From Porphyromonadaceae bacterium UBA4702 (GTDB lineage: Bacteria; Bacteroidota; Bacteroidia; Bacteroidales; Muribaculaceae), in contig DHKE01000001.1 of assembly GCA_002404675.1 (NCBI GenBank), positions 1 through 56,127 on the forward strand: a DNA stretch of 56,127 nucleotides. Direction: 5' to 3'. Of the stretch, positions 3,001 to 49,290 are shown in pieces; position 1 is the first letter of the stretch, and each line of letters begins with the position of its first letter. The notes beneath the pieces are model-generated. The model saw nothing but the letters and a program-made list of their open reading frames with translations. It made no database searches and was not told the origin of the DNA. Made by a program: the position numbers and the translations under genes.

Positions 3001-3719
3001 TCGCAGCAGAGGACGCGATAGCAAACAACTATGCAGTCTCAACGCTGGCTCGCGGCAACGACGCGATAGCCGACGACGCTGCAAGCACAGAGGGCGCGTC
3101 GGTCAACGCTGACGAGATAGACCGCAGCTTCTTCGAGGACCTCGGCTACGAGTACGGCTTTGACGCTACCACGCCGTGGAGCTACACCGGCATGGCAAAC
3201 TGCCCGACACTCTACCACGAGGGCGGTCTGGCAATATTCGACAAGTCTGCTGCCGAAGTTGATGTGGACGAGGAGGTGACCATCTACTTGTCGCTCAAGG
3301 GCGGCGTGATTGACGAGGACGCGCTGGGCAGCTTCAGCTGCAGCGTCAGCGACGAGAGCGTGCTCGAGATGACCGGCAGCGAACTGGCCGGCGAGGCAAT
3401 TGCGCTTACATTCAAGGGACTGAAAGAGGGCGTGGCTACCGTAACCGCCTCTGTCAACGGCAAGGAAGCCAAGTGCGTGATAACCGTCAAGCCGCTCGGC
3501 GCTGTTGACAACATCGCCGCTGACGCAGCGCGCATCGGCTTTGACGGCCGCACCGCCACTGCACAGGGCTGCCTCATCAGCGTTTACAACCTCGCTGGCA
3601 TGAACGTGCTTTCAGGCATCGGCTCATGCGACATGGGCAACCTTGCAGCCGGCATCTACATCGTCAACGCTGTTGATGCTGACGGCATGCTCCATACGCT
3701 CAAGGTGCGTGTGAGATAA
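69..3719 (+). CDS. Large secreted GLUG-repeat protein with T9SS sorting tail
   Basis: A 1216-residue protein that begins with a signal peptide (basic start, hydrophobic run, Ala-rich cleavage region near residue 20). The first ~620 residues are of a type I do not recognise. From about residue 631 a 'GTIDNPYEI' entry leads into a beta-helical region with GLUG-type repeats (GGLAGG, GGIVAK, GGIVGA, GGIVGS) at about residues 755-885. A bacterial Ig-like (BIG2-type) domain lies at about 1054-1145. The last ~70 residues form a T9SS type A sorting tail ending LAAGIYIVNA...LKVRVR, so the protein is probably exported and surface-attached or released. GLUG proteins are often adhesins, but no ligand can be assigned. 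It is followed by a clear terminator and appears monocistronic. Confidence 0.85.
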   Translation: MKHVLLTAAMALALPAFAASTVATPSRQANSADAFRYMPKVKADGDNALRTGSLDKMDGGKVKFAASHSNAIEAGQLPTADGVNYIYGPDGSIWHYTVNFDKEVVDHGSYKETKINGYEFTIYNTSFEIVGTIHGTIELAAGETSVADVAIGPQLTRKFFNTDDKYEAMVCIATTTSEYVNITKTLVYSLGVEEPLMTIPGYYVSAINTATDAWSEKFWLTFVTEEETQTPSINGVTNMSDNVFTVYKSAGWNGMEDPVMTFRVPTILVSGENAIPFMATVYDGMPYFATSMMKYCYYQDPYDYNNENLTPDNELQISLYTLPSKWSSELELYSTTTIPSDATKDNINFLYLGAFSYDDDIALGHYTTDGTPAFIITKEIYNISNDGYVYNYDVMKAAPKGETAAAEQLVSLAKGVDGGYFLSDLPGYDPQVMFIINEGDAYRFNFVNLYTGQLETTLPQVIDDEISMSSSVDRVAGGDSYLYAVSQTTGADDEEGNTYHRIAYITPDGDIDHVDRINLGQDIAYAQVYMGEGAFNPYNFNLDDAAEYMVLAKRYDQKGSSASHDELLVVSTDPEVGTLLSLRESPEFGALRYIYFSNLGTDDARLIVTYCDDNWRYTAVDYKLPFTYFTKGEGTIDNPYEITTVGELAQIKAFPAAHFALGADIDAQGKTLTTGEFTFTGTFDGRGHTISNLTLNGGAMFPTLMGSEASVKADEPTTGVVRDVNFVDLVFTPGADAQGIVAGSLMYGRIINVHVYGATINATGNVGGLAGGEYLYSVIEGSSVNADITASEGAVGGIVAKQGTSASVVACAFTGSISGETEVGGIVGASEEAACKVTDCHVNAAVKGQNTIGGIVGSSVRGQVARCHVQGSLEATEAATWGGGVKMGGVVGSLQPDYSSSGEVRMEEGEDPVTAQAVISGCYVNLTSMTAPTGAAQGGNYEGENDTMHRIVGYSRGNEAEQTGEYDEEWNPIYGDLLAAEDAIANNYAVSTLARGNDAIADDAASTEGASVNADEIDRSFFEDLGYEYGFDATTPWSYTGMANCPTLYHEGGLAIFDKSAAEVDVDEEVTIYLSLKGGVIDEDALGSFSCSVSDESVLEMTGSELAGEAIALTFKGLKEGVATVTASVNGKEAKCVITVKPLGAVDNIAADAARIGFDGRTATAQGCLISVYNLAGMNVLSGIGSCDMGNLAAGIYIVNAVDADGMLHTLKVRVR

Positions 3720-3869: not shown

Positions 3870-3877
3870 TACCTTTG
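3870..3877 (+). promoter_or_regulatory. Putative -7 element of the deoC promoter
   Basis: TACCTTTG matches the Bacteroidales -7 consensus TAnnTTTG. It lies 88 bases before the deoC start. No -33 TTTG sits at the usual 19-21 base spacing, so this is a partial match only. Confidence 0.45.
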
Positions 3878-3965: not shown

Positions 3966-4853
3966 ATGGAGATGATGGACAGATACAACAAGGCAATAGC
4001 CGACAGCCGCGTGACCGGCGACGACGCTCGCGTCGCTGCCGAGGTGGCACGCATCATGGAGAATGTGTCGCAGTATGACACGCAGGACGTTTACCGCTTC
4101 CTGTTCAGCTCGATCGACCTGACTACGCTGAGCAGCGAGGACTCCGTCAAAAGCGTAGCACGCTTCACGCAGCGTGTCAACGATTTCGACAATGACTACC
4201 CGCAATACCGCAACGTGGCGGCGATATGCGTGTACAGCAATTTCGCCGACGTGGTGCGCACGCACCTCGACGTGCCGGGAGTGGATGTGGCTGTCGTGGC
4301 GGGGTGTTTCCCTTCGAGCCAGACGTTCACCGCCGTCAAGGTGGCTGACTGCGCCCTCGCAGTCGAGGCCGGCGCGAGCGAGGTGGACGTGGTCTTCCCC
4401 CTCGGCATGTTTGCCGACGAGAATTACGAGGACCTCTGCGACGAGCTGACGGAGCTGAAGCACACGGTGCGCGGCGGCAAGCTGAAGGTGATACTCGAGA
4501 CAGGCGCGTTGCGCACGGCCGAGAACATCAAGAAGGCATCGGTGCTTGCCCTGTGGAGCGAGGCCGACTTCCTCAAGACTTCGACCGGCAAGATGTACCC
4601 TGGCGCGTCGCTCGAGGCGGCATACGTGATGTGCAGCTGCATCAAGGAGTATTACGAGAAGACCGGTCGCAAGGTGGGCTTCAAGGCCTCGGGCGGCATA
4701 CGCAGCACAGCCGACGCGCTGGGCTATTACGCCGTGGTGCGCGATGTCCTCGGCGAGGAGTGGCTCTGTCACGACCTCTTCCGCATCGGCGCAAGCAGCC
4801 TTGCCAACGCATTGCTCTCGTCCATGGAGGGTGAAGAAGTGAAGTATTTCTGA
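3966..4853 (+). CDS. deoC: Deoxyribose-phosphate aldolase
   Basis: Cytoplasmic class I aldolase that splits 2-deoxyribose 5-phosphate into glyceraldehyde 3-phosphate and acetaldehyde, the last step of deoxynucleoside breakdown. The 295-residue protein has the catalytic signatures of the family: Asp141 in EVDVVFP, the Schiff-base lysine Lys204 in DFLKTSTGK, and Lys240 in GFKASGGIR. It is longer than the E. coli enzyme mainly at the N terminus. Starts at residues 3 or 4 (also Met) cannot be excluded. A short imperfect hairpin covers the stop codon (4851-4870) without a T run. A secreted nuclease gene starts 47 bases later on the same strand, which fits a role in using DNA-derived deoxyribose (inference). 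Confidence 0.95.
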   Translation: MEMMDRYNKAIADSRVTGDDARVAAEVARIMENVSQYDTQDVYRFLFSSIDLTTLSSEDSVKSVARFTQRVNDFDNDYPQYRNVAAICVYSNFADVVRTHLDVPGVDVAVVAGCFPSSQTFTAVKVADCALAVEAGASEVDVVFPLGMFADENYEDLCDELTELKHTVRGGKLKVILETGALRTAENIKKASVLALWSEADFLKTSTGKMYPGASLEAAYVMCSCIKEYYEKTGRKVGFKASGGIRSTADALGYYAVVRDVLGEEWLCHDLFRIGASSLANALLSSMEGEEVKYF

Positions 4854-4899
4854 CACGCCAGAGCGCGTCATTGACCACAACAACCGAAACCAAATTAAA

Positions 4900-5967
4900 A
4901 TGATTAAGAAAGGGAGTATATTGGCGGCGGCAGCGGCGGCGTTGCTGCTGGCCGGGGCGGCTGTCACCGCGCAGACACAAAAGCCGGCGCAGGCCCGCCC
5001 GCAAGTCTACGGTGTCGCCTTCTACAATCAGGAGAACCTGTTTGACACTATCAACAACAACGGCAAGTACGACCTCGAGTTCAGCCCCAAGGGCAACCGC
5101 AAGTGGGACGGCCACAAGTACTGGAACAAGATACACAACATGGCGTATGCCATTTCGCAGCTGACCACCAAGAGCACCCCCGACGGCCCTGCCATAATCG
5201 GCGTGAGCGAGGTCGAGAACCGCACCGTGCTTGAGGACTTGGTCAAGGACGAGAGTCTGCGCGGCCTCAACCTGCAGATCATACACCATGACTCGCCCGA
5301 CCTGCGCGGCATAGATGTCAGCGTGCTGTACAATCCCAAGCTCTTCCGTCCGATCAACGTGACCAACCATACGCTGTTCATCGACTCGCTGCCCAATTTC
5401 CGCACACGCGACCAGATGTGCGTGGTCGGGCTGCTCGGTCCGGCACGTGTGGCTGTGATAGTCAACCATTGGCCTTCGCGGCGCGGCGGCACGAGCGGCA
5501 GCGCACCCCTGCGCGATGCGGCGGCTATGCTGACACGCCATATCGCCGACTCGCTACACCGCATCGACCCCAACATGGGCGTAATCATCATGGGCGACCT
5601 CAACGACGACCCCTACGACCGCTCGTGCGCCAAGACTCTCGGCGCGGTCAAGAAAATGGAAGACGCAGCCAAGGGCGGATACTTCAACCCTTTCTGGAAG
5701 AAACTCGACGACGGCATAGGCTCTTATATCTACCGCAGCGGCTGGAACCTCTTTGACCAGATCATCGTCAGCTACGAGTTGACAGCGCAGGGCGAGAACC
5801 CTCTGGAATATTTCAACGCCAAGGTGTGGAATGACAAGGACTTCCTCCTGCAGCAGAACGGTCAGTATGTGGGCTATCCGCTGCGCACATACTCCTCGGG
5901 CGTGTGGACCAACGGCTATTCCGACCACCTGCCCACCGAGGTATTCTTGCGCGTGCGTCGCAAATGA
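4900..5967 (+). CDS. Secreted endonuclease/exonuclease/phosphatase (EEP) family protein
   Basis: A 355-residue exported hydrolase of the EEP (DNase I-like) fold. A signal peptide with a long Ala/Leu core is cleaved near residue 25 (VTAQ). Fold signatures are in order: QENLFD at 44-49, the metal-binding Glu104 in GVSEVENR, His190 in VNHWPSRRGG, Asp233/Asn235 in GDLNDDP, and the terminal Asp342-His343 in YSDHLP. These are the residues expected for a metal-dependent phosphodiesterase. Family members cleave DNA, RNA or phosphoesters, and the substrate cannot be read from sequence. It lies between deoC and a TonB-dependent receptor gene, all co-oriented, so a periplasmic or surface nuclease is the best guess. 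Confidence 0.88.
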   Translation: MIKKGSILAAAAAALLLAGAAVTAQTQKPAQARPQVYGVAFYNQENLFDTINNNGKYDLEFSPKGNRKWDGHKYWNKIHNMAYAISQLTTKSTPDGPAIIGVSEVENRTVLEDLVKDESLRGLNLQIIHHDSPDLRGIDVSVLYNPKLFRPINVTNHTLFIDSLPNFRTRDQMCVVGLLGPARVAVIVNHWPSRRGGTSGSAPLRDAAAMLTRHIADSLHRIDPNMGVIIMGDLNDDPYDRSCAKTLGAVKKMEDAAKGGYFNPFWKKLDDGIGSYIYRSGWNLFDQIIVSYELTAQGENPLEYFNAKVWNDKDFLLQQNGQYVGYPLRTYSSGVWTNGYSDHLPTEVFLRVRRK

Positions 5968-6009
5968 GACCAGTAACAACATGAAATTCAAACAATAACC
6001 GATAAGAAT

Positions 6010-8805
6010 ATGCGAATTAAACTACTATTGACACTGCTTCTGTGTCTGGCGCTGCCCTCGTTGGCTCAAACGGGCGTGAAAGGCACATTGGTGGACGGTC
6101 GCAACGGCAAGCCCATTGCCGACGCGACAGTGATGCTGAGCGGACAGTCCGTGTTCGTGGTCAGCGGCGCTGACGGCCGGTTCACCATTTCTAACGCCGA
6201 GCCGGGGCCGGCTCAACTCGAGATCATCGCCTACGGCTATGATGACTTCTCCGAGGAAGTGGATATTGTCAAGGGCATCGTGCGCGAGCTCGACGAAATC
6301 AAGCTCAACCCGCAGTTTGACGCCATCAACCTCCTTCCCGACGACCAGAACTCTGACGACGAAACTGCATACGACGACGAGGGGCTGACACAGTCCATCG
6401 GCACTATACAGGGCGCAAACGACGACGTGTATTACCAGACGGCCAACTACAACTTCTCCGTCACACGTTTCCGCATGCGCGGCTACGACCAGACCTGGAA
6501 CGCCGGCTACATCAACGGTTTCAACTTCAATGACGCTATGCGCGGCCGCTTCAACTATTCCGGCCTCGGCGGCATGACCTCCAGCGCGTTCCGCAACAAG
6601 ACCATCAACCCCGGCATCCAGAACTCCAATTACGGCTTCGGCATGGTGGGCGGCGCGACCAATTTCACCACCTACGCCTCGGAATATGCTGCCGGCTTCC
6701 GTGGCAACGTCAGCTACACCAACTCCAACTACATGATGCGTGCTATGCTGCAGTACAACACTGGCGTGACAAAGAACGGCTGGGCATTCTCCGCTTCAAT
6801 CATCGGCCGCTACTCTCCCGAGGGTGTCATCGAAGGCACGTGGTACGACTCTTTCGGCTACGCACTCTCGCTGCAGAAGATATTCAACGAGAAGCACTCG
6901 CTGAACATCTCAACTTGGGGCAACCCCACACAGCGCGCCACAAACTCCGCTGCTACGCAAGAGGCTTACGACCTGGCAGGCAACAACCTCTACAACCCGC
7001 AGTGGGGTTATCTCGACGGCAAGAAGAAGGCTGCAAAGGTGGTTGAGGCATTCGACCCCTCAGCCCTCATCAACTGGATCTGGAAACCCACCAAGGGCAC
7101 TGTCGTCAACACTGGTGTCGGCTTCCGCTCGAGCAACTACTCAAGCTCTGCCCTCAACTGGTATCAGGCCGCTGACCCGCGTCCCGACTACTACCGCTAC
7201 CTCCCCTCATATTACTATCCCACCGCCGAGGAGGGCACTCCCCTCTACGATGCGCAAATGGAGCAGTATGAGACTTACCGCAACCTGTGGATGAACGACA
7301 AGAGCTTCCGTCAGATAGACTGGAACTCACTCTACCAGGCCAACTATACCAACTCCATACTCTACGACCGCAACCCCGAGCTGAAAGGCCAGGCTACATA
7401 CATACTCGAGAAACGCCACAGCAACTTCAACCAGTGGATGTTCAACTCGTATGTCAACCACCGCCTCAACGACCACAGCCAGCTCCAGGGCGGCATCAGC
7501 TTCTCCTATACCGAGAGCCATTACTACAAGACCATCAAGAACCTCCTCGGCGCTGAGTTCTGGCGCGACGTTGACAACTTCGCAGAGCGCGACTTCCCCA
7601 ACAACCCCGAAATCCTCCAGAACGACCTGCGCAACCCCAACCGCAAGGTGTATGAGGGCGACAAGTTCGGTTATGACTACAACATCCGCTCCTACATAGC
7701 CCGCGCTTGGCTGCAGAACCAGATCAACACCCTGCACTGGGACGTGAACTACGGCATCGAGATGAGCTATACCAACTTCATGCGCCACGGCAACATGCAG
7801 AACGGCCGCGCCCCTGAGAACTCGCTCGGCTCTGGCAAACGCCACACATTCGACAACGCTGCCATCAAGGCCGGCGCGACATACAAGCTCAACGGCCGCA
7901 ACTACTTCGTTGCACACGCCGCTTACGGCACACGCGCTCCGCTCCCTGACAACGCTTACGTTTCTCCGCGTATCAAGGACACCGCTGTTTCCAACCTCCA
8001 GTCCGAGCGTTTCCTTTCCGCCGACCTCGGCTATGTATGGAACTACAAGAACTTCCGGGGCAGCGTCACCGGCTTCTACACCGAGATGTGGAACGGCATG
8101 CGCCGCACGGGTTTCTACGACTACCAGCTCAACACGTTCATGAACTATGCCATGTCGGGCATGCAGACACGCTATACCGGCGTTGAGCTCGGCTTCGCAT
8201 ACAAGATTATCCCCTCGCTGACATTGACCGGCGCCGGGACTATCGCTTCATACACCTACCGCAACAACCCGATGGGCGTGCGCTCATACGAGAACGGCGC
8301 GCAGGACGACGTGACGCGCCGCGTTTACCTGAAGGGCTTCCACGTCGGCGGCACTCCGCAGCAGGCTTACAGCCTCGGCTTGGACTACGCTGCTCCCGGC
8401 ATGTGGTTCTTCGGCATCAACGCCAACTATTTCGCTGACGGCTATGTGGACCTCTCGCCGACACGCCACGAGGCCATGCCCGAACTCTACACTGTTGTAA
8501 CTCCCGCCGAGGGACAGACCATACAAGAGGCTGTCCAGGCCAAGGTAGAGGAGATAGCATACCAGCAGAAGCTCAAGTCAGCCTTCGTCCTCAACCTCTC
8601 TGTGGGCAAGGTGATTTACACACGCTTCGGGTCGCTCAACTTCAACCTCAGCGTCAACAACGTGCTCAACAACCGCAACATACAGACCGGCGGCTATCAG
8701 GAGGGCAAGTTTGACTACACCAACTACAACGTCAACAAGTTCCCCAACAAGTATTACTACGCGCAGGGCATCCGCATATTCTTCAACTTCGGAATACGCT
8801 TCTGA
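6010..8805 (+). CDS. TonB-dependent outer-membrane receptor with carboxypeptidase-like N domain
   Basis: A 931-residue outer-membrane transporter. After a signal peptide (cleavage near LAQT, residues 18-21) comes a carboxypeptidase-regulatory-like beta domain (GVKGTLVDGRNGKPIADATV, about residues 22-100). A plug region (about 110-230) and a large Tyr/Asn-rich beta-barrel follow, ending in an aromatic residue (FFNFGIRF) as in outer-membrane barrels. It is not a classical SusC, because no susD gene follows. Instead two OB-fold lipoprotein genes lie directly downstream (35 and 21 bases apart) and two T9SS nuclease genes after them. Likely substrate: breakdown products of nucleic acid (inference from neighbours). 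It starts 42 bases after the EEP gene and is probably co-transcribed. Confidence 0.9.
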   Translation: MRIKLLLTLLLCLALPSLAQTGVKGTLVDGRNGKPIADATVMLSGQSVFVVSGADGRFTISNAEPGPAQLEIIAYGYDDFSEEVDIVKGIVRELDEIKLNPQFDAINLLPDDQNSDDETAYDDEGLTQSIGTIQGANDDVYYQTANYNFSVTRFRMRGYDQTWNAGYINGFNFNDAMRGRFNYSGLGGMTSSAFRNKTINPGIQNSNYGFGMVGGATNFTTYASEYAAGFRGNVSYTNSNYMMRAMLQYNTGVTKNGWAFSASIIGRYSPEGVIEGTWYDSFGYALSLQKIFNEKHSLNISTWGNPTQRATNSAATQEAYDLAGNNLYNPQWGYLDGKKKAAKVVEAFDPSALINWIWKPTKGTVVNTGVGFRSSNYSSSALNWYQAADPRPDYYRYLPSYYYPTAEEGTPLYDAQMEQYETYRNLWMNDKSFRQIDWNSLYQANYTNSILYDRNPELKGQATYILEKRHSNFNQWMFNSYVNHRLNDHSQLQGGISFSYTESHYYKTIKNLLGAEFWRDVDNFAERDFPNNPEILQNDLRNPNRKVYEGDKFGYDYNIRSYIARAWLQNQINTLHWDVNYGIEMSYTNFMRHGNMQNGRAPENSLGSGKRHTFDNAAIKAGATYKLNGRNYFVAHAAYGTRAPLPDNAYVSPRIKDTAVSNLQSERFLSADLGYVWNYKNFRGSVTGFYTEMWNGMRRTGFYDYQLNTFMNYAMSGMQTRYTGVELGFAYKIIPSLTLTGAGTIASYTYRNNPMGVRSYENGAQDDVTRRVYLKGFHVGGTPQQAYSLGLDYAAPGMWFFGINANYFADGYVDLSPTRHEAMPELYTVVTPAEGQTIQEAVQAKVEEIAYQQKLKSAFVLNLSVGKVIYTRFGSLNFNLSVNNVLNNRNIQTGGYQEGKFDYTNYNVNKFPNKYYYAQGIRIFFNFGIRF

Positions 8806-8840
8806 CCCCGCGTGCATGACAACAAATAACGACTAAGACA

Positions 8841-9857
8841 ATGAAGAAAATTGCATTATACATTTCGTTGACACTTGCGTTGGTGGGCGGTCAGTTCATC
8901 TCCTCGTGCAGCGATGACAAGGAGTATCCCCCGGTAATCGTGCCGGAGGACTACGGTTCGGGCAAGTGGGACAATCCCATATCCGTGGGCCAGGTGGTCG
9001 AAGGGTTCACAGGCAACGACGTGTGGATGACCGGCTACATCGTCGGCTGGATCGACACCGGCATCTCCAACACATACACCGTGGAGAATGTCAAGTTCGA
9101 GACTCCCGCCACCGTTGCTTCCAATATGCTTGTGGCTGCCACTCCCGACGAGCGTGACATCACCAAGTGCGTCCCCGTGCAGCTCGTGAGCGGCTCTGAC
9201 GCTCGTGCTGCCCTCAACCTCGTTGACAACCCCGCCAACTTGGGCAAGCAGGTGACTATCAAGGGCAACGCAGAACGCTATTTCGGCACTGCCGGCTTCA
9301 AGAGCGTCAGCGCATACAACTGGGACAAGGTCGGCATCGAGGAGGAAACTCCAGACACACCAGATGTCCCCGCTGGCGAGCAGGTATATCAGGCTGACAA
9401 GTCGTCCGGCCTCGATGCCTTCACATTCGAGAACGTGGTGCTTCCTTCCGGTTCGTCATACGTATGGAAAGTGGATTCCAAGTACGGACTTGTGGCTTCA
9501 TCGTACTTCGGCGGAGCGTGCCACGCTTCAGAGGCGTGGGCTATTTCGCCGACCATCGACCTGACCGGCTACAAGTCGGCTGTGCTGACATTCCGCCACG
9601 CCGGCAATAAGTTTGAGTCGGCTGCCAACTTCGCTGCAAGCTGCACTGTGGCTGTACGCGAGGACGGCGGAGCATGGACCACTGTCACTGTGCCCAACTT
9701 ATGCGAAGGCACCTCATGGACGTTTATCGATTCCGGCAACGTTGACCTGACCCCGTTCGCAGGCAAGAAGATACAGTTCGGTTTCCACTACGTGTCAACC
9801 GACGAGATAGCCGGCTCATGGGAAATCGACGCAATCAAGGTCAATGCCGGCAAGTAA
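8841..9857 (+). CDS. Surface lipoprotein: DUF6359-like OB domain plus choice-of-anchor J domain
   Basis: A 338-residue lipoprotein with a lipobox at ISSC (residues 20-23), followed by Ser-Asp-Asp, a pattern favouring export to the cell surface in Bacteroidota. Residues ~39-160 resemble the OB-fold DUF6359 family (DNPISVGQV, WMTGYIVGW, TIKGNAERYFG). Residues ~177-338 are a choice-of-anchor J jelly-roll domain (EAWAISPTIDL, FRHAGNKF, FGFHYVSTDE). This second domain is strikingly close to the one at the end of the secreted nuclease at 14023-15615. It lies between the receptor and the DUF5689-like lipoprotein and may replace a SusD-type binding protein (inference). Confidence 0.82.
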   Translation: MKKIALYISLTLALVGGQFISSCSDDKEYPPVIVPEDYGSGKWDNPISVGQVVEGFTGNDVWMTGYIVGWIDTGISNTYTVENVKFETPATVASNMLVAATPDERDITKCVPVQLVSGSDARAALNLVDNPANLGKQVTIKGNAERYFGTAGFKSVSAYNWDKVGIEEETPDTPDVPAGEQVYQADKSSGLDAFTFENVVLPSGSSYVWKVDSKYGLVASSYFGGACHASEAWAISPTIDLTGYKSAVLTFRHAGNKFESAANFAASCTVAVREDGGAWTTVTVPNLCEGTSWTFIDSGNVDLTPFAGKKIQFGFHYVSTDEIAGSWEIDAIKVNAGK

Positions 9858-9878
9858 GTCATTCTAACACTACAAGCA

Positions 9879-12191
9879 ATGAAAAGTATAAGATTATCAT
9901 ATTTGGGAGCCTCGCTGCTCATGGTCACGGCACTCGCTTCGTGTCAGGATGACTTTGACGCTCCCGGAATACAGGAGCCTGTCGCTACATGGCAGGCCAA
10001 CACCACTATCGCCGGCCTCAAGGAGGCGATGTGGAAGGACGACACCAACTATGCCATCAAGTGCCCGCAGAAGGAGGACGGCTCCAACTACATCATCAAG
10101 GGGCGTGTCATCTCCTCTGACGCTTCGGGCAACATCTACAAGTCACTCTACCTGCAGGACGCTACCGGCGCGATAACCATCTCTATCAACCAGAACAGCA
10201 TCTACAACCAGTACCGCGTAGGTCAGGAGGTAGTGATGGACGTTACCGGCCTGTACATCGGCAAGTATGCTGGCTTGGAGCAGATAGGCGGCTACGGCGA
10301 ATACAACGGCACGCCGCAGGTGTCGTTCATGATATACCCGCAGTTTGAGGAGCATACGCAGCTCAACGGCCTTCCCTCGACCGACCTGACATACATCAAC
10401 TACGGCGAGGAAGCCCCCGCCGAGGGGATGTACTGCACGGTGATGAAAATCTCCGACCTCCCTACTGACAATGCCGGCATACGTGCCATGCAGAGCCAGC
10501 TCGTCGAGCTGCGCAACGTGCATTTCGAGCAGGGCGGCGAGAACACTTACTCGACTTACCAGAAGACCGAAAACCGCAACCTGGTCGATGAGGCCGGCAA
10601 CACCATCGTGGTGCGTACTTCGGGCTACTCGACATTCTATAACCAGACACTCCCCAAAGGCACAGGCACTGTCCGCGCCATGCTGTCATACTTCAACGGC
10701 ACATGGCAGCTGCTGCTGCGCTCTACGGCTGACGTGATGTTCGGCGGCAAGGGCCAGAAGGATGAACCCTACACCGTCAGCGAGGCTCTCGGCCTCCAGG
10801 ATACCGGCGCGGCCGGCTGGGTCAAGGGCTACATCGTCGGCGCTGTCAAGGGCGGCGTGAGCGCCGTGGCCTCAAACGAGGACATCATCTGGGGCAAGGA
10901 CGTGGACATGGACAACAACCTCGTCATCGGCGAGACTGCCGACACCCGCGACTACACGCAGTGCGTGGTGGTTGAGCTCAAGAGCGGCTCGGCGTTCCGC
11001 AACGCGGGCAACCTGCTTGACAACCCCGGCGTATACGGCAAGGCCATCTCCTGCCGTGGCACATTCGCACGCCTCCTGGGCATGGGCGGCGTGACCGGCA
11101 ATGCCGGCACGACCGACGAGTTCACCATCGAGGGCGTTGACAACCCCAATCCCCCTGTGACCGACGCTCCCGGCACACTCTCCTGTGACTTCGAGGAGGC
11201 TTCCAAGATAGCCGACTACACCGCCAAGGGGTGGAAGCTCGCGGCTGTCAAAGGCAACCTCTCCGGCTGGTACATCAAGACGTTCAACAGCAACAACTTC
11301 GCTAACGTGAGCGCATATCTGGGCACTGCCACCGGCGGCCCGTATGAGAACTGGCTCATCACTCCCGCTATCGACCTGTCGAAGTCGGAGAAGAAGGTGC
11401 TTTCATTCGAGTCTCAGGCTGCATACGCTGCCAACGACAGCTACCTCGAGGTGTATGTCATGACTACCGACAACCCCGCAAGCGCACAACTCACCAAGCT
11501 GAGCCCGACACTTGCCACACCCCCGGCAAGCGGCTACAGCGACTGGGTGAAGTCCGGCGAGGTTGACCTCAGCGCGTTCAGCGGCATCGTCTATGTCGGC
11601 TTCAAGTACTATTCCGCAGCCGGCGGCAAGGACAACAGCGCAACGTATGCTGTTGACAACGTGGTAATAGGCAAGTCCACCGGCGGCTCGGTAACTCCCG
11701 ATCCAGACCCGACTCCCGGCCCGACTCCTGACCTGCAGGATGCAGTAGTCCTCAAGGCTGCCGACGCTGCCAACTTTGACGGCGAGCATCACGCTGAAGA
11801 GCCTAAGGAGGGTTCGTCAAACGGTCAGGCTGAACGCTGGCAGCCCCTGCGCGGCTTCACTATAGGTGACTACGCATTTACATTCACTTCAGGCACCGGC
11901 ACCGCAACTGCATGGTACAACATCATGTCAACCGCGACATCCGGCACTCCGACTGTCCGCTTCTACAACGGCTCGGGCATGACCATAAAAGTACCCTCGG
12001 GCAAGGTCGCCAAGATTGTCATGAAGGGCAGCAACGCCAACAGCGCGCTCGCTCCCACGGCTGATGCCGGCACTGTCACCCGCGACGGCAACACTGTCAC
12101 CTGGACTTCCACCACCGGCGTAAGCAGCGTGACATTCTCATTCAATGCAACATACCGCGTCAACACCTTCGAGATTTACCTCGTGAAATAA
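9879..12191 (+). CDS. Multidomain surface lipoprotein: DUF5689-like, DUF6359-like, choice-of-anchor J
   Basis: A 770-residue lipoprotein with a lipobox at ALASC (Cys22), followed by Gln-Asp-Asp. Domains in order: a DUF5689-type OB-fold region (about residues 30-270; IIKGRVISSD, GNIYKSLYLQDATG), a DUF6359-type OB domain (about 287-425; VKGYIVGAVKGG), a choice-of-anchor J jelly roll (about 429-597; WLITPAIDLS), a Pro-Asp-Thr linker (PDPDPTPGPTPD, ~605-618) and a C-terminal beta domain. OB folds often bind single-stranded nucleic acid. With two nuclease genes next door, a nucleic-acid capture role is plausible but unproven. It starts 21 bases after the previous lipoprotein gene. Confidence 0.82.
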   Translation: MKSIRLSYLGASLLMVTALASCQDDFDAPGIQEPVATWQANTTIAGLKEAMWKDDTNYAIKCPQKEDGSNYIIKGRVISSDASGNIYKSLYLQDATGAITISINQNSIYNQYRVGQEVVMDVTGLYIGKYAGLEQIGGYGEYNGTPQVSFMIYPQFEEHTQLNGLPSTDLTYINYGEEAPAEGMYCTVMKISDLPTDNAGIRAMQSQLVELRNVHFEQGGENTYSTYQKTENRNLVDEAGNTIVVRTSGYSTFYNQTLPKGTGTVRAMLSYFNGTWQLLLRSTADVMFGGKGQKDEPYTVSEALGLQDTGAAGWVKGYIVGAVKGGVSAVASNEDIIWGKDVDMDNNLVIGETADTRDYTQCVVVELKSGSAFRNAGNLLDNPGVYGKAISCRGTFARLLGMGGVTGNAGTTDEFTIEGVDNPNPPVTDAPGTLSCDFEEASKIADYTAKGWKLAAVKGNLSGWYIKTFNSNNFANVSAYLGTATGGPYENWLITPAIDLSKSEKKVLSFESQAAYAANDSYLEVYVMTTDNPASAQLTKLSPTLATPPASGYSDWVKSGEVDLSAFSGIVYVGFKYYSAAGGKDNSATYAVDNVVIGKSTGGSVTPDPDPTPGPTPDLQDAVVLKAADAANFDGEHHAEEPKEGSSNGQAERWQPLRGFTIGDYAFTFTSGTGTATAWYNIMSTATSGTPTVRFYNGSGMTIKVPSGKVAKIVMKGSNANSALAPTADAGTVTRDGNTVTWTSTTGVSSVTFSFNATYRVNTFEIYLVK

Positions 12192-12214
12192 GGGGTTGAC
12201 CCCGTCCTGAACAT

Positions 12215-12249
12215 ATTCCCCGCTTGCGGACATTACCGCAGCGGGGAAT
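12215..12249 (+). other. Strong intercistronic hairpin
   Basis: A 14-bp stem with one bulged T (ATTCCCCGCTTGCGG against CCGCAGCGGGGAAT) and a 6-nt loop lies between the DUF5689-like lipoprotein gene and the first endonuclease I gene. It has no T run, so it is not a classic terminator. A smaller GGGG-TTGA-CCCC hairpin lies just upstream near 12193. Confidence 0.6.
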
Positions 12250-12283
12250 TAAATCTGAAACCAAGAATACATCCGTTCAACTG

Positions 12284-13996
12284 ATGAAGAAACTTTTATT
12301 GCTGGCACTGGCTCTCTGCGCGGCTATCGGCTGTGCATGGGCGGCATACCCCCAGGGCTATTATGACGCCATGGAGGGGAAGAGCCGCGACAAGCTGAAA
12401 GCAGCAGCCAAGACCTGTGTCCAGTCGCATACGCAGCTCATCTACCAGCAGCTGCCCGTATACTGGCAGTACACCGACGTTTATGCCGACCTGTACAACG
12501 GCAACAAGCGGTGGTGGGACATGTACAGCGACAACATCTACTTGATACGCGGCGGCGAGTCCGCCCTCGGCAGTTTCTCGCGCAACCGTATGCAGCGCGA
12601 GCACTCCGTCCCCAAGTCGTGGTGGAAAAGCAACGGCAGCGTGGAGTACACGCCAGCTTACAGCGACTTGTGGAACCTTTACCCCTCTGACGGCCCGGCC
12701 AACCAGGCCAAGCTGAACTACGCCTTCGGCGAGTGCGCCAGCGCCACGTTTGACAACGGCGTGTCGAAAATAGGCCCTGCCAAGACAGGCATGGGCGGCG
12801 GCAGCGGCAACGTGTTTGAACCCGATGACCGCTACAAGGGCGATTTTGCCCGCGCCATTTTCTATATGGCTACAGTCTATGACGACCTCCCCTGGGCTAT
12901 CAACTACATGTTCCAGTCAAACTCTTACCCTACGCTCCGCACATGGGCTGTCGATATGCTGCTGCAATGGAGCCGCATGGACCCGGTGGACGAGAAGGAG
13001 AAGGTGCGCAACGACGCTGTGCAGAACGCGCAGGGCAACCGCAACCCTTTCATCGATTTCCCCGAGCTGGCGGAATACATCTGGGGCACACGCACCACGG
13101 AGACTTTCCATATCGCCGATCAGGGCGGGCAGGTAACCCCTCCGTTCACCGGCGACCCCGAGGTGACATCGCCCGAGAATGGTGACGAGCTGCCCTTCGG
13201 CGACGTGGCTCTCGGCAAGACCATTTCTGCGCAGCTTACGGTGATCGGCAGCAACCTGACCTCAAACCTCTCTGTGCGCATCACCGGCACTGACCGCGCC
13301 ATGTTCACCGTCTCTGCCAACACCATTCCCGCCCTCCAGCTGAATCAGGGCGAGTCGTTCCTGCTCAACATAGTCTACCGCCCGACTTCGGAGGGCGAAC
13401 ACCACGCCAACCTCACACTGTACGACGGCGGTCTGCCGCTCGGGCAGCAGATCAACGTCAGCCTCTCCGGCAAGGCGTTCCCTGTACCTGAACTGGAGAC
13501 GCTCACCGCGACTGACGCGACCAACCTCTCCGACTATTCGTATACCGCCAACTGGAACGCCACGCTCCAGGTGATAGACAACTATGTGGTGACGCGAGTG
13601 CGCTATGACGGCGACGATACGGAGAGCGAGGAACTCAATTCCGACACCAACAGCCTCGACATATACGGCCGCACACCGGATGTGACCGAGTCCTACTATG
13701 TGCGCTCGTCGCGCCTCGGATACCTCTCCGAACCCTCAAACGTCATCGTCATTCCTGGCGGCGCCGGCGTGGTCGGCATACACGGCGACCAGCCCCTGAC
13801 GATAGGAGCTGCAGAGGGCGGCTTCGTGGTGCTGCTCGACACCGTGCATACCAACCTGCGCGTCTACAACATGAGCGGCGCGCTGGTGCTGCACCGCGCT
13901 TCAGTATGCGGCGGCGAGACGTTCACGCTTCCTGCCGGCGTGTATGTGGTGACGACAGACCAGGCTCTGCGCCCCTGCAAGACGACAGTATTCTGA
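12284..13996 (+). CDS. T9SS-exported endonuclease I family nuclease (first copy)
   Basis: A secreted DNA/RNA endonuclease of the endonuclease I (EndA/NucM) family, 570 residues from the chosen start. I chose the ATG at 12284 because it opens a clean signal peptide (MKKLLLLALALC, cleavage near AWA, residue 20); the upstream in-frame ATG at 12224 falls in the hairpin. Catalytic His-Me motif: REHSVPKSWW (Arg105, Glu106, His107), then YSDLWNLYPSD and NQAKLNYAFGE. A Hydin/ASPM-like beta domain follows (about 290-395), then a fibronectin-like stretch, and a T9SS sorting tail (LRVYNMSGALVL...LPAGVYVVTT). A second nuclease of the same family starts 27 bases downstream, so the two are probably co-expressed. 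Confidence 0.9.
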   Translation: MKKLLLLALALCAAIGCAWAAYPQGYYDAMEGKSRDKLKAAAKTCVQSHTQLIYQQLPVYWQYTDVYADLYNGNKRWWDMYSDNIYLIRGGESALGSFSRNRMQREHSVPKSWWKSNGSVEYTPAYSDLWNLYPSDGPANQAKLNYAFGECASATFDNGVSKIGPAKTGMGGGSGNVFEPDDRYKGDFARAIFYMATVYDDLPWAINYMFQSNSYPTLRTWAVDMLLQWSRMDPVDEKEKVRNDAVQNAQGNRNPFIDFPELAEYIWGTRTTETFHIADQGGQVTPPFTGDPEVTSPENGDELPFGDVALGKTISAQLTVIGSNLTSNLSVRITGTDRAMFTVSANTIPALQLNQGESFLLNIVYRPTSEGEHHANLTLYDGGLPLGQQINVSLSGKAFPVPELETLTATDATNLSDYSYTANWNATLQVIDNYVVTRVRYDGDDTESEELNSDTNSLDIYGRTPDVTESYYVRSSRLGYLSEPSNVIVIPGGAGVVGIHGDQPLTIGAAEGGFVVLLDTVHTNLRVYNMSGALVLHRASVCGGETFTLPAGVYVVTTDQALRPCKTTVF

Positions 13997-14022
13997 CCCA
14001 TAGAAAACAAAAGACTCTCAAT

Positions 14023-15615
14023 ATGAACAAAGTTATTTCTCTCATTTCCGCCGCCTTTGTGCTGTCAGCCACTTGCCTGACGATGTCGGCGGCAATCCCG
14101 GACGGCTACTATTCAGCCCTCGAGGGTAAGAAGCAGTCTGCCCTGAAGGCTGCTGCAAAGTCTGCTGCCGCAAGCCACACGCGGGTTTCGTATGGCGATG
14201 ACACATGGGACGCTTTCAGGCAGACCGATGTGCGCACAGTCAACGGACAGAAGGTGTGGTGGGACATGTACAGCGACAACAATGTGTCTGTATCTGGCGG
14301 ACACGGCGGAATGAACATAGAGCACTCTGTCCCCAACTCATGGTGGGGCAAGGCCAAAAACGACGCATACTGCGACTTGTTTCACCTGAACCCCTCGGAC
14401 AAGGAGGCCAACAACCGCAAGGCCAACTATCCCCTCGGCATAGTGGCGATGGTGAAATGGACCAACGGTGTCACCACTGTCGGCAGCCCGGCAAGCGGCG
14501 CTTGCGGCGGCGCGTCATGGGTGTTTGAGCCGGCTGACGAGTACAAGGGGGACTTCGCCCGCACCTACTTCTACATGTTCACCATCTATGACGACATCAA
14601 CTGGAGCGTGACGCAGACCGACCGCAACTTCATGTTTGACGGCAGCTCATACCCCTCGCTGCGCCCTTGGGCATACACCATGCTGCTCGAGTGGTCCAAG
14701 AACGACCCGGTGGACGAGAAGGAGCGCAACCGCAACGAGGCAATATACAAGATTCAGGGCAACCGCAACCCGTTTATCGACTATCCCGAACTGGCGGAAT
14801 ACATCTGGGGCAGCAAGCAGAACGAAGCGTTCAGCACTACTGGGTCGGTTGACCCGGACCCGGGTCCCGATCCCGATCCGGATCCCGACACTGACGAGGT
14901 CATACTGCAGGCTGACAAGACTTCCGGCTTCGAGAAATTCACTTACGACAACGTGTCGATGCCCTCTGACGCATCCTATATCTGGAAGATAGACGACCGC
15001 TACGGCCTGGTGGGCGGCGCGTACTACAACGGCAAGTGCCATGCGGCTGACGCTTGGGCGATTTCCCCCATCCTTGACCTGACCGAGAGCGCGGCAGCCG
15101 CCATGAAGTTCCGCCATGCCGGCAACAAGTTCAACGACGCCGAGACGTTTGCCTCAAGCTGCTCGCTGGGCGTGCGCGAGGTGGGCGGCGAATGGCAGAC
15201 TGTGGAGATACCCAACATGTGCGAAGGCACAAGCTGGAAGTTCATCGATGCCGGCGACATCGACCTGACCTCCTTCGTGGGCAAGGAAATCGAGATCGGC
15301 TTCCACTATGTCTCGACCGACGCTGTTTCCGGCACTTGGGAAATCGACAACCTGCAGGTGACACGCCGCAAGAACGTGGGAGTGGACGAAATGTCATCTG
15401 CTGTCTACTCCGCGACTGCATATTCTCCGGCTCACGGTACGCTCTGCATCACAGCCGACGGCACTTACTTGTCCTCAGCCGCGGTCTATGACATGGCCGG
15501 CCGCCGCGTGGCTTCCGGCTCGCTCGCCGGCGACATCACGCTGACGGTTGCCCCGGGCGTGTATATCGTCACATACTCCGATGGTCTGCCCGCTACGAAA
15601 GTAGTCGTGCGCTGA
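14023..15615 (+). CDS. T9SS-exported endonuclease I family nuclease (second copy) with choice-of-anchor J domain
   Basis: A 530-residue secreted endonuclease I protein. The start at 14023 gives a signal peptide (MNKVISLISAAFVL, cleavage near MSAA). The nuclease domain (about 24-275) carries the active-site motif IEHSVPNSWW (Glu100, His101) and CDLFHLNPSD. A Pro-Asp linker (PDPGPDPDPDPDTD, ~285-298) joins it to a choice-of-anchor J domain (about 300-455) very like that of the lipoprotein at 8841-9857 (CHAADAWAISPILDL, FRHAGNKF, GFHYVSTD). The protein ends in a T9SS sorting tail (AAVYDMAGRRV...APGVYIVTYS). It is a diverged paralogue of the preceding nuclease with a different accessory domain. 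Confidence 0.9.
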   Translation: MNKVISLISAAFVLSATCLTMSAAIPDGYYSALEGKKQSALKAAAKSAAASHTRVSYGDDTWDAFRQTDVRTVNGQKVWWDMYSDNNVSVSGGHGGMNIEHSVPNSWWGKAKNDAYCDLFHLNPSDKEANNRKANYPLGIVAMVKWTNGVTTVGSPASGACGGASWVFEPADEYKGDFARTYFYMFTIYDDINWSVTQTDRNFMFDGSSYPSLRPWAYTMLLEWSKNDPVDEKERNRNEAIYKIQGNRNPFIDYPELAEYIWGSKQNEAFSTTGSVDPDPGPDPDPDPDTDEVILQADKTSGFEKFTYDNVSMPSDASYIWKIDDRYGLVGGAYYNGKCHAADAWAISPILDLTESAAAAMKFRHAGNKFNDAETFASSCSLGVREVGGEWQTVEIPNMCEGTSWKFIDAGDIDLTSFVGKEIEIGFHYVSTDAVSGTWEIDNLQVTRRKNVGVDEMSSAVYSATAYSPAHGTLCITADGTYLSSAAVYDMAGRRVASGSLAGDITLTVAPGVYIVTYSDGLPATKVVVR

Positions 15616-15670
15616 CTCGAGAACCATATCCTCATACGATACTATTCATCCACAGCAAATATTATATAGC

Positions 15671-17167
15671 ATGATTTTCAACCGACTGAAGGTGGTCAAG
15701 GCATTGTCCTTGGCCGCCTGTCTGGCGGCAGCGCCGCTGCTGCACGCCCAATCCGGCGAAAGCCCCGGCTCTGTCACCGACAACCCCGGAGCCGAGAATG
15801 AACCCATTGCACAGCCTGTCTCCGGCACTCTGCCGGTGGTGTATGTCAACACCGAGGGCGGTGCGCCGATAGTGAGCAAAGAGGACTACCTCGACGCAAC
15901 CCTTTGGATTGACCCTATGGGCACGGAGGGGGTGGAAGCCCTCGGCTCTGCCGACGAGCCTGTAACGCTCCAGATACGCGGGCGCGGCAACAGCTCCTGG
16001 CAAGAGCGCAAGAAGCCGTTTAAGCTGAAGTTCACCAAAAAGCAAAAGCCTTTTGGCTTCCCGAAGAGCAAGCATTTCGCGCTGCTTGCCCACGTACATA
16101 CCCAAACTTATATGGGAGGTGAAGCCGCATACGAGATGGCGCGTCTTATCGGCCTTGGCTGGGTGCCACGTTCCTATCCTGTCGAGGTGGTGCTGAACGG
16201 TGTGAACCTAGGTGTCTACGCCTTTTCCGAGACGGTCCGCATCGACGAGGGACGGCTCGAAATCAACGAGCAGCCTGAGAACAACACCGACCCTGCAACC
16301 ATTGACGACGGCTGGCTCGTAGAGATAGATGCCACTATTGACACGCCGCAGATAGTGGTGTGTCAGAATTATCTCGGCACGGAGGAGAACCCACGACGGT
16401 TTACTATAAAGACCCCGGAGGTATTGTCCGATGTGCAGTTGCAGTGGATTACTGAACAGATGACAGGCGCAACCCGCGCTATATACAATCCCGACAAGCT
16501 ATCAGGTGACTGGAAGGAATATTTTGACTTGACCTCCCTCGCGCGTTACTATATAGTGCAGGAAGTCTCCTGTAACTTCGACGCATTCACCAGCAGTACA
16601 TATATGCATCACTCGTCTGGTGGGAAGTGGACTTTTGGCCCTATATGGGACTCGGAGTGGACGTGGGATCCGGAAGTCCGTAATGGTACTTTTTGGGAAG
16701 AGCTACATCGCTATTATGCCGGTGATGACGATGAGATGTATTTTCCCACATGGATTGCCGAACTGTGGAAGTACAACGAGTTCCGCCGCATCGTCCTTGA
16801 GGAGTGGGAGAAGTTCTATCCTGACTATCTTGTCAAGGTGCGCGATTTCGTTGACCGCTTCTATGCACAGACCCGCGCCGCATACCTGGTGAACGGCAAG
16901 ATATGGCCTTCTTACGATGCGATAAACATCGACTGGGCATATTCCCGCGTAACGACTCACCTTGATGCTTACGCCGCATGGTTTGACCAGTTCATACGCG
17001 AGGCAGTCAACGGAGTTGAGGGCGTGGCAGCCGGCACCGAGGCATATCCTGCTGACGTGTATACCGCTGCCGGCATCCTCGTGCGCCGTGCCGCCTCTGC
17101 CGATGAGGTGGCATCATTGCCTGCCGGCTTGTACATTGTGGGCGGCCGCAAACTTATCATACGATAA
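15671..17167 (+). CDS. Secreted CotH-like (CotH kinase family) protein
   Basis: A 498-residue exported protein with a signal peptide ending near LLHAQS (residues 23-28). It has CotH-family signatures: the GRGNSSW glycine-rich motif (104-110) followed by KKPFKLKFTKK, the EVVLNGVNLGVYAFSE stretch, and DSEWTWDPEVRNG. CotH proteins are secretory-pathway kinase relatives that phosphorylate proteins in spore formers. In Bacteroidota their targets are mostly unknown. The C terminus (VYTAAGILVRR...LPAGLYIVGGRK) looks like a short T9SS sorting tail. It ends the nuclease gene run, 55 bases after the second nuclease, and is followed by a terminator. Whether it acts on the nucleases is unknown. Confidence 0.85.
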   Translation: MIFNRLKVVKALSLAACLAAAPLLHAQSGESPGSVTDNPGAENEPIAQPVSGTLPVVYVNTEGGAPIVSKEDYLDATLWIDPMGTEGVEALGSADEPVTLQIRGRGNSSWQERKKPFKLKFTKKQKPFGFPKSKHFALLAHVHTQTYMGGEAAYEMARLIGLGWVPRSYPVEVVLNGVNLGVYAFSETVRIDEGRLEINEQPENNTDPATIDDGWLVEIDATIDTPQIVVCQNYLGTEENPRRFTIKTPEVLSDVQLQWITEQMTGATRAIYNPDKLSGDWKEYFDLTSLARYYIVQEVSCNFDAFTSSTYMHHSSGGKWTFGPIWDSEWTWDPEVRNGTFWEELHRYYAGDDDEMYFPTWIAELWKYNEFRRIVLEEWEKFYPDYLVKVRDFVDRFYAQTRAAYLVNGKIWPSYDAINIDWAYSRVTTHLDAYAAWFDQFIREAVNGVEGVAAGTEAYPADVYTAAGILVRRAASADEVASLPAGLYIVGGRKLIIR

Positions 17168-17192: not shown

Positions 17193-17227
17193 GGCACGCT
17201 GACCGCTGGGCGGCGTGCTCTTTTTTA
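17193..17227 (+). terminator. Terminator after the cotH-like gene
   Basis: GCACGC pairs with GCGTGC around a G+C-rich loop, followed by TCTTTTTT. It separates the secreted-nuclease run from korAB. Confidence 0.65.
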
Positions 17228-23446: not shown

Positions 23447-24189
23447 ACAGCCTCATGAAACTGACAGCAGAACAAGTCTACAACAAGCTGCTGAAAGAAG
23501 ACAACATAATGGAAGAAGAGGGACAAATCCGTTTCTTCCTTGGGAACGTTGACATAATAGTACGGCAAAAGGATGTCGTGGGCAACATAATTCAGGAATG
23601 GCTCGAGGGTTGGCTGTCAAAGAACGGCATCGCATTTGACCGCAATGTCAATTCACAGATGCCGCCTGATGTTTTCCTCGACCCTGAAGACCACACTCGC
23701 GAACTGCTCGAGGTGAAAGCGTTCAACCGAGATGCCTCGCCTGGCTTTGACATCGCCGATTTCAAGGCATACGCACGCGAAATAGTCGCTTCGCCGTATA
23801 TGCTGCATACAAAGTACCTTATATTCGGCTACAGAATGTCCGACGACGGCATAGTCACAATACGCGGACTGTGGCTCAAGAATGTGTGGGAGATATGCCG
23901 CTCTATGGATAGCTGGGCACTTAACGTGCAGTATAAGAACAAGGTAATCCATAAGATACGCCCTGCGACATGGTACAGCAACAACCGCCGGTTTCCTCTG
24001 TTCAAATCGTTGGAACACTACTTGTCTGCGATTGAAGAGACGCTGTTCGGCTACCCCGACACGCACGCTGTTGCAACTGGCTGGCGGCGCAGGATGGTTG
24101 CCGCCTATCAGGATTTCTATGGGATAAAACTATCCATCCCCCGCTGGGATGAGATTGAAGACATATACCGTCCAGCAGCTGACAAATGA
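23443..24189 (+). CDS. Type II restriction endonuclease, NgoBV-like (predicted GGNNCC)
   Basis: A 248-residue nuclease, start fixed by the ATGA overlap with the methyltransferase. It carries a PD-(D/E)xK-type core: Pro75-Asp76 in MPPDVFLD, then Glu90-x-Lys92 in LLEVKAFN. The stretch PPDVFL...ELLEVKAFNRDASPGFDIADF and the Trp-rich second half resemble the NgoBV/NlaIV family as I remember it; family assignment is moderately sure. It appears full length with no internal stop. The order methyltransferase first, nuclease coupled behind, suits safe establishment of the system. Confidence 0.72.
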   Translation: MNSLMKLTAEQVYNKLLKEDNIMEEEGQIRFFLGNVDIIVRQKDVVGNIIQEWLEGWLSKNGIAFDRNVNSQMPPDVFLDPEDHTRELLEVKAFNRDASPGFDIADFKAYAREIVASPYMLHTKYLIFGYRMSDDGIVTIRGLWLKNVWEICRSMDSWALNVQYKNKVIHKIRPATWYSNNRRFPLFKSLEHYLSAIEETLFGYPDTHAVATGWRRRMVAAYQDFYGIKLSIPRWDEIEDIYRPAADK

Positions 24190-30060: not shown

Positions 30061-30064
30061 TGAG

Positions 30065-41378: not shown

Positions 41379-41486
41379 ATAGAAATCGGTCAAAACTCGT
41401 CACCGCGAAATTACAAAAAATTCGTGAGCCGCCCAACCTCCGGTCGGCGGTTCACTATTTGGGTGAGAACATTCTTCATTCCGCTG

Positions 41487-46414: not shown

Positions 46415-46446
46415 CCTCAAACCTGTGAAATAAACGATACACCTAT

Positions 46447-49268: not shown

Positions 49269-49290
49269 TACACAACACATCAACCGATAC

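Follow-up and report, generated by a model that had tools for sequence, protein, structure and literature searches.

An operon centred on relatives of the Riemerella transformation pair is a candidate DNA importer in gut Bacteroidales

Most known competent Gram-negative bacteria rely on type IV pili. In Riemerella anatipestifer, it has been demonstrated by deletion that natural transformation needs both the outer-membrane protein RA0C_RS04915 and the DUF5689 protein RA0C_RS04920 (PMC8459023). Huang et al. proposed that this pair acts as binder and channel, and ascribed the conversion of dsDNA into ssDNA either to ComEC itself or to a protein yet to be identified; on the spread of the outer-membrane protein they are inconsistent, assigning it both to Bacteroidetes at large and to Flavobacteriaceae only. 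Deletion of a YifB-family gene also reduces transformation in Riemerella. Homologues of all these proteins are reported in Flavobacterium johnsoniae, yet this species was not competent under the conditions tested. The tonBB effect in R. anatipestifer was ascribed by the authors to iron shortage, and omission of phosphate lowers transformation in R. anatipestifer, whereas R. columbina shows the opposite. Our literature searches returned no mention of DUF6359, and DUF5689 only in PMC8459023, which also carries the RA0C tags. In the titles and opening lines of abstracts among the matches listed for a Bacteroidota DNA utilization locus, for competence with SusC and for DNA uptake in Muribaculaceae (a scope that excludes preprints), the operon presented here is undescribed.

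The window that we analyzed is a stretch of 56,127 nucleotides from Porphyromonadaceae bacterium UBA4702 (contig DHKE01000001.1). Profile searches and the window ORFs place eight genes on its plus strand, in the order given by a preliminary description of this DNA. They encode a deoxyribose-phosphate aldolase, deoC (3966-4853; TIGR00126 at 136 bits, cut-off 117.3, and PF01791); an EEP-fold nuclease/phosphatase (4900-5967; PF19580, 350 bits), predicted to be secreted from an N-terminal signal-like segment recognized by eye; a receptor, that is, an outer-membrane protein of the TonB-dependent-transporter fold related to RA0C_RS04915, with a PF13620/PF13715 (CarboxypepD_reg) N-domain (6010-8805); a putative lipoprotein to which profile searches assign DUF6359 and choice-of-anchor J (8841-9857), with acidic residues (SDDKE) behind its putative lipidated Cys; a putative lipoprotein with DUF5689, DUF6359 and choice-of-anchor J, related to RA0C_RS04920 (9879-12191); an endonuclease I with a C-terminal CTD-like region (12284-13996; PF04231, 153 bits); a further endonuclease I with choice-of-anchor J and a CTD-like region (14023-15615; PF04231, 171 bits), which weakly matches the solved endonuclease I entries 1oup/1ouo (E ~1.6e-5); and a CotH-like protein (15671-17167; PF08757, 123 bits). 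The endonuclease coordinates are those of likely ATG starts, the listed ORFs starting at 12224 and 13906. Export of the endonucleases by the T9SS, as previously claimed, is not established: TIGR04183 scores 16.3 bits for the first endonuclease and 19.3 for the second, below its cut-off of 23, and CotH has no match.

The stretch from 3966 to 17167 looks like one operon, and the CotH-like gene probably shares the transcription unit of the genes upstream. A motif at 3870-3877 on the plus strand, 88 bases 5' of deoC, reads TACCTTTG, which we take to fit the Bacteroidota -7 promoter motif. The next plus-strand copy of TANCTTTG lies at 17260, ahead of korA; a search run after the motif had been spotted by eye found 12 copies in the window, versus 3.49 expected and a maximum of 9 in 100 shuffles. 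Of 35 related loci, 32 have TAnnTTTG no more than 320 bp 5' of the deoC match, while base shuffles give 3.5 on average. A stricter two-box promoter pattern has three sites in the window, none of them ahead of deoC. After CotH, a plus-strand hairpin with a T-run would close the unit (17193-17226; -24.1 kcal/mol, z -2.2, equalled by 3 of 200 shuffles); a terminator scan of the whole region found 11, not above the 11.1 expected by chance.

Among known systems, the Riemerella transformation pair comes closest, rather than the polysaccharide utilization locus that had been offered as the analogue. The receptor is homologous over its full length to RA0C_RS04915 (30% identity over residues 1-931), and the DUF5689 lipoprotein is homologous to RA0C_RS04920 (about 30% identity). 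So modest an identity leaves room for a change of substrate. We located the Riemerella pair in L111, a Riemerella-like stretch (12 regions were fetched, and L111-L113 examined) in which the genes follow one another as in the published series of locus tags, recA through comEC. The same two families stand there in the same order and strand as in the window, and the gene beside them encodes an EEP protein of the window's EEP family (40% identity over residues 60-350). The EEP gene of the window is co-directional with the pair, whereas that of L111 is divergent. The window also differs in having one DUF6359 gene, which codes for the additional lipoprotein with this domain, between the receptor and DUF5689 genes, and in its extra deoC, CotH and pair of endonuclease I genes. 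Moreover, no transformation is known for the system of the window.

SusC/SusD-type polysaccharide utilization loci, and Bacteroides BtuB with its surface lipoproteins, resemble the operon in that a single locus unites a TonB-dependent-transporter fold with a surface lipoprotein and enzymes. In contrast to the SusC/SusD loci, the eight genes give no SusD match (E 0.001), as the preliminary description had noted, and no glycan-active enzyme, their Pfam matches being limited to nucleases, an aldolase, CotH and domains of unknown function; the lipoproteins are of the DUF5689/DUF6359 kind, and the predicted substrate is DNA. Secreted nucleases that yield nutrients from extracellular DNA are described for Bacillus subtilis (YhcR/NucA/NucB; PMC11458576) and marine Bacteroidota (PMC8289736), but in the parts of these sources available to us no dedicated outer-membrane importer is described. 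PF18942 also has a match in the B. subtilis control genome.

Given that the core pair is essential for transformation in Riemerella, DNA might be imported in the first place for recombination, with the nucleases shaping the incoming DNA and deoC being a hitchhiker or salvaging the degraded strand. ComEC and DprA, each found in 20 of 21 relatives, would accord with this, as would the restriction-modification genes nearby and a YifB/ComM-type AAA ATPase encoded outside the unit (25835-27385, plus strand; TIGR00368, 584 bits, over the cut-off), a possible partner of the unit. However, with their near-universal distribution, both ComEC and DprA lack discriminating power, and Flavobacterium has the homologues without being competent. 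The 19-kb Riemerella-like stretch lacks endonuclease I and deoC by its gene list, and an operon that combines deoC with two endonuclease I genes suits catabolism better. We regard a primary role in transformation as unlikely.

Related loci were collected in one scan with two peptide patterns, of which we considered the best 80 of 183. The DUF5689 gene lies 3' of the receptor on the same strand in all 77 related loci that extend 1.5 kb or more past the receptor, at a distance of up to 2.0 kb among these best 80. The neighbourhood is thus conserved, although the preliminary description had envisaged receptor, DUF6359, DUF5689 and endonuclease I together: the receptor and DUF5689 form its core, and endonuclease I and deoC are clade-specific. 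Endonuclease I is present at 27 of 28 testable loci in one Bacteroidales clade versus 0 of 30 outside it. This count uses the first endonuclease only, since hits of the second in loci outside the clade fall on the lipoproteins, 1-4 kb away, and are due to its choice-of-anchor J domain. All neighbourhood markers were window proteins used as tblastn queries at 1e-6, so that distant nucleases were possibly missed. Outside the clade, endonuclease I occurs ~8 kb downstream in L064 and L071, EEP within 2.5 kb in L033, L069 and L073, and deoC within 4 kb in L063 and L077. The receptor tree left out L035, which has a shortened ORF. CotH, presented earlier as a member of the system, is found 3' of the receptor in 0 of the best 80 of 183 loci, including 47 that extend 8.5 kb downstream, and we rejected it as a core member; L045 and L055 carry a CotH-like gene upstream on the other strand. 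In one Bacteroidales clade the receptor and DUF5689 pair has thus been supplemented with deoC, EEP and endonuclease I, a combination that fits a nutritional use.

Across the phylum, the receptor and DUF5689 families are carried by the same 28 of 198 Bacteroidota genomes; the receptor search scored at most four candidates per genome, which leaves its absences soft, while the DUF5689 search scored all candidates and returned the same 28. The sample centre, G001, was picked for carrying the module. No more than 1.2 kb separates the two genes in 27 of the 28 genomes, and EEP stands beside them in 18. We tried several further markers and rejected them. EEP is not exclusive to the module, its family occurring also in 18 of 28 genomes lacking the pair (14 at ≥150 bits), taken non-randomly, in handle order, from 170 such genomes. 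Endonuclease I is found in 21 of the 28 genomes with the pair, but just two of them, G001 and G124, have it close to the receptor. ComEC lies ~4 kb away in the Riemerella-like trio and 12-27 kb away in G219, G225, G128 and G074, and its presence is uninformative, because it is found in 28/28 genomes with the pair and in 10/14 controls. We consider it highly improbable that the operon is a conventional surface locus for a nutrient or an adhesin, with a substrate other than nucleic acid and nuclease neighbours acquired by chance, as chance would hardly bring deoC, EEP and endonuclease I together in one clade, nor place EEP beside the pair so often across the phylum. Since EEP adjoins the pair in the Riemerella-like stretch, in these 18 genomes and in the window, the EEP gene (RA0C_RS04910 by position) is a candidate for the nuclease missing from the published Riemerella model.

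The receptor model consists of a plug inside a beta-barrel, the predicted TonB-dependent-transporter fold, although Pfam Plug was not matched. By sequence, the only solved relative of the barrel is an 85-residue SusC domain (E 0.0099), the DUF5689 protein has only a weak gingipain match in its C-terminal part, and the two EEPs and a 1216-aa neighbour have no solved relatives. The barrel's closest folds, BtuB, FecA and FhuA, carry small ligands; this, together with the phosphatases in the EEP family and the action of deoC on deoxyribose phosphate, would accord with a scavenger of nucleotides, nucleosides or another phosphorylated nutrient, whose EEP and endonuclease would work outside the cell, leaving only small products for the receptor to import. 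The Riemerella pair is, however, needed for transformation, which requires the entry of long DNA, and DNA-binding domains are among the fold matches of the lipoproteins, so that we rate such a scavenger as rather less likely still than a primary role in transformation. HIN domains consist of tandem OB folds. The OB folds previously claimed for the lipoproteins gain some support at fold level from Foldseek matches to HIN (probability 0.97-1.00), but TMt is only 0.21-0.38, and the matches come without residue ranges in the DUF5689/DUF6359 lipoprotein. At residues 40-420, a second aligner did not confirm the fold, the VIA rows listed covering mainly 428-602. Other lipoprotein matches are beta-rich, e.g., the Bacteroides surface glycan-binding protein 7kwb.

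The idea of DNA scavenging is thus partly supported, by the conserved neighbourhood, the co-occurrence of the pair and its homology to the Riemerella pair; what it had missed is the link to transformation. We suggest, at a probability of about two in three, that the unit, carried by gut bacteria related to the family Muribaculaceae, is a TonB-energised outer-membrane DNA importer, a Riemerella-type pair recruited in the clade for eating DNA and perhaps also for gene uptake. DNA as the substrate is taken from the Riemerella deletion phenotype. Several observations speak against this reading: the low TMt of the HIN matches, the non-competent Flavobacterium, the iron explanation of the tonBB effect, the opposite phosphate responses of the two Riemerella species and the EEP family in genomes lacking the pair. 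Receptor and DUF5689 lipoprotein make up the core, and the EEP nuclease often lies beside them. Endonuclease I proteins, to judge from their family, would cut extracellular DNA outside the cell. The two surface lipoproteins would bind it through tandem OB-like folds while sitting on the transporter, in the position of SusD in glycan systems. The plugged barrel, energised by TonB, would then pass DNA or fragments to the periplasm, where EEP may degrade or process them; products would reach the cytosol, and deoC would route deoxyribose 5-phosphate into central metabolism. The pair would be the older part, recruited into a DNA-eating operon in the Bacteroidales clade, and may still serve transformation via ComEC, DprA and ComM.

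The operon bears on the question of how DNA crosses the outer membrane in Bacteroidota. The window places the pair firmly in gut Bacteroidales, names a candidate nuclease in the EEP gene, and offers a concrete case for testing "DNA as food" versus "DNA as genes". More tentatively, and at slightly worse than even odds, a plugged barrel, an OB-fold lipoprotein and an EEP nuclease would form a widespread Bacteroidota DNA importer, powered by TonB and not by a pilus, of which the operon would be one Bacteroidales clade's "DNA utilization locus". If this is true, eating DNA and acquiring genes would share one outer-membrane gate in the clade with deoC and secreted endonucleases.

The window receptor (6010-8805), an outer-membrane protein of the TonB-dependent-transporter fold, and the DUF5689 lipoprotein encoded after it appear from their sequences to be members of a receptor/DUF5689 family of Riemerella. 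A transposon screen in Riemerella anatipestifer names the DUF5689 protein and, in the available excerpts of that study, markerless deletion of either RA0C_RS04915 (a PF13620 outer-membrane protein) or RA0C_RS04920 (DUF5689, choice-of-anchor J) brings transformation below detection (PMC8459023). The receptor is present in 77 of the 80 genomes from the family of one genome of our phylum survey, with ComEC about 4 kb away in three. In L111, one of these Riemerella-like stretches, the order is recA, dinB, sdhB, sdhA, sdhC, comEC, a 145-residue gene, carboxyltransferase, EEP, receptor and DUF5689 lipoprotein (ORFs of at least 90 aa; sdhB and sdhC assigned by N-terminal sequences only). Counting locus tags by fives from recA (RS04870) puts comEC at RS04895, the receptor at RS04915 and DUF5689 at RS04920, as published; given this agreement, RS04910, mentioned in the excerpts only as an upstream gene with unchanged transcription (PMC8459023), would by position be the EEP nuclease. 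The L111 lipoprotein (15731-17134, +) passes the NCBIfam model named M949_1556 with 599 bits (cut-off 475); M949_1556 is an R. anatipestifer gene whose inactivation in strain CH3 served a vaccine study, as cited in the part of PMC12566107 consulted. The 145-residue gene (L111:9263-9700, -), between comEC and the carboxyltransferase in Riemerella-like genomes, has no Pfam or NCBIfam match. Compared with the L111 stretch, the window receptor shows 30% identity (residues 1-931, 372 bits), the DUF5689 lipoprotein 30% plus 33%, and the EEP protein 40% (residues 60-350).

The receptor/DUF5689 adjacency, known from Flavobacteriaceae according to the excerpts of PMC8459023, is reproduced across the phylum. 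The receptor profile matches 28 of 198 Bacteroidota genomes at 193 bits or more (best score in the remaining genomes, 60.7), and DUF5689 matches the identical 28 at 147 bits or more (73.7 in the remainder), these boundaries being taken from the listed matches. The chance of two 28-genome sets coinciding is about 10^-34, a figure that is too strong, as it ignores kinship. In 27 of the 28 genomes receptor and DUF5689 share a strand, and the DUF5689 match starts no more than 1.2 kb downstream; the remaining genome has the two on different contigs. The distance exceeds 500 bases in 5 of the 27, leaving space for an intervening gene. Of the 28 genomes, 18 have an EEP gene no more than 0.9 kb upstream of the receptor, divergent in 17. 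ComEC is present in all 28 genomes, but is near-universal. Of two statements in PMC8459023 on the spread of the receptor, our survey favors Bacteroidetes at large over Flavobacteriaceae only. In two of these far relatives a second EEP gene lies past the DUF5689 gene, so that EEP flanks both sides (G124 C1:1330473-1331390, L115; G139 C1:934501-935421, L116).

Within Bacteroidales, we sampled the best 80 of 183 loci, mostly from Muribaculaceae or 'Porphyromonadaceae' MAGs, which also hold the receptors nearest to that of the window in this sample. Among these best 80 of 183, all 77 loci extending at least 1.5 kb have a DUF5689 gene after the receptor; where there is enough sequence, 40 of 74 have EEP no more than 2.5 kb upstream and 37 of 68 have deoC no more than 4 kb upstream, the two occurring together in 37 of 80. 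Of 28 testable EEP+deoC loci, 27 have endonuclease I no farther than 6.5 kb downstream (locus L020 is the exception), against 0 of 30 loci outside that set. The neighborhood search across Bacteroidales suggested in the preliminary description upholds the pairing of receptor and DUF5689, with endonuclease I at this distance seen in testable loci bearing EEP and deoC. CotH, listed in the preliminary description, is not a conserved member: of the 47 sampled loci with 8.5 kb of downstream sequence, none has it after the receptor. In a tree of 108 receptors built by a quick method, the EEP+deoC loci, including the window, form one clade with 100% support, and 28 far-relative receptors fall across a single branch from the rest. 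This is consistent with deoC and the endonucleases having joined an older importer once, with EEP switching from divergent to co-directional. Such a history is what one would predict had the importer been taken over for feeding on DNA. Two DUF5689 genes stand in tandem after the receptor in many loci outside the operon clade (L039, L045, L046, L056-L059, L062-L073, L075, L076 and L078-L080).

In the window, the eight genes at 3966-17167 (deoC, EEP nuclease/phosphatase, receptor, DUF6359 lipoprotein, DUF5689+DUF6359 lipoprotein, two endonuclease I and CotH) are all present on the + strand in the order first described, with gaps of 21 to 92 bases when likely ATG starts are used (endonuclease I genes from 12284 and 14023). 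The sequence TANCTTTG, which by consensus we take to be the Bacteroidota-type -7 motif, has 12 copies in the window versus 3.49 expected (maximum 9 in 100 shuffles), the pattern having been chosen once the site had been spotted by eye. A + strand copy lies at 3870, ahead of deoC, and the next at 17260, ahead of korA; a stricter two-box promoter pattern had no match at the site ahead of deoC. An RNA hairpin and then a T-run are found 3' of CotH; folding of 65 nt gave -24.1 kcal/mol (z -2.2). Among 35 related loci from the best 80 of 183, 32 carry TAnnTTTG in the 320 bases that precede the deoC match (base-shuffle control mean, 3.5), one has it in the deoC-EEP gap and none in the EEP-receptor gap; it occurs in 6 of 279 same-sized control pieces from inside receptor genes. 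The short gaps, the motif ahead of deoC, the 3' hairpin with its T-run and the motif placement in related loci together indicate that the unit is probably one operon.

Elsewhere in the window, restriction-modification genes near one another comprise a C5 methylase with an NgoBV-type enzyme (22148-24189, +), an EcoRV-type enzyme with a D12-class adenine methylase (29257-30970, +) and a further C5 methylase (32247-33602, +). A DNA/RNA non-specific endonuclease (PF01223, 180 bits) lies outside the unit at 40551-41393 (-). A second receptor locus (43736-52095, +), in which a Plug-type receptor gene is followed by genes for a DUF4876 protein, a DUF6850 protein and an M16 peptidase, is a surface system separate from the unit. 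A 1216-residue exported-looking protein (69-3719, +) has weak GLUG repeats and a C-terminus that is sorting-like by eye; searches gave no Pfam match over cut-off, no TIGR04183 match and no solved relative.

Gene order, protein families, predicted folds, homology to the transformation-essential pair and conservation of the pair are established. We suggest that endonuclease I would cut extracellular DNA, the lipoproteins would capture it, TonB would drive it through the barrel, EEP may process it in the periplasm and deoC would allow use of its deoxyribose. The main weakness concerns DNA as the substrate, a reading that draws on about 30% identity to a Riemerella pair defined genetically and biochemically uncharacterized. 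Long DNA strands may be passed on to ComEC here as well; ComEC and DprA are each found in 20 of 21 relatives. A YifB/ComM-type Mg-chelatase-like AAA ATPase (TIGR00368, 584 bits over cut-off) is encoded at 25835-27385 (+), 8.7 kb past the unit; deleting a gene of this family reduces Riemerella transformation, according to the excerpts of PMC8459023. As reported in the portions of the sources consulted, Riemerella tonBA and tonBB mutants have reduced transformation, the tonBB effect being put down to iron by the authors (PMC8383284). In R. columbina, restricting phosphate or peptone raises transformation, a response that the authors relate to DNA as food (PMC7965970), whereas in R. anatipestifer transformation drops without phosphate or peptone (PMC8383284).

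The unit resembles a Sus-type locus in combining transporter, surface lipoprotein and enzymes, but has neither SusD nor glycan enzymes; the earlier analogy to a polysaccharide locus holds for the working layout and not for locus type. Bacillus subtilis reclaims extracellular DNA as a nutrient through secreted nucleases (PMC11458576), and such reclamation has been suggested for marine Bacteroidota (PMC8289736); the excerpts of these two sources describe no importer. The initial finding stands, and goes beyond what the sequence by itself had revealed. The unit is a new form of a barely described system.
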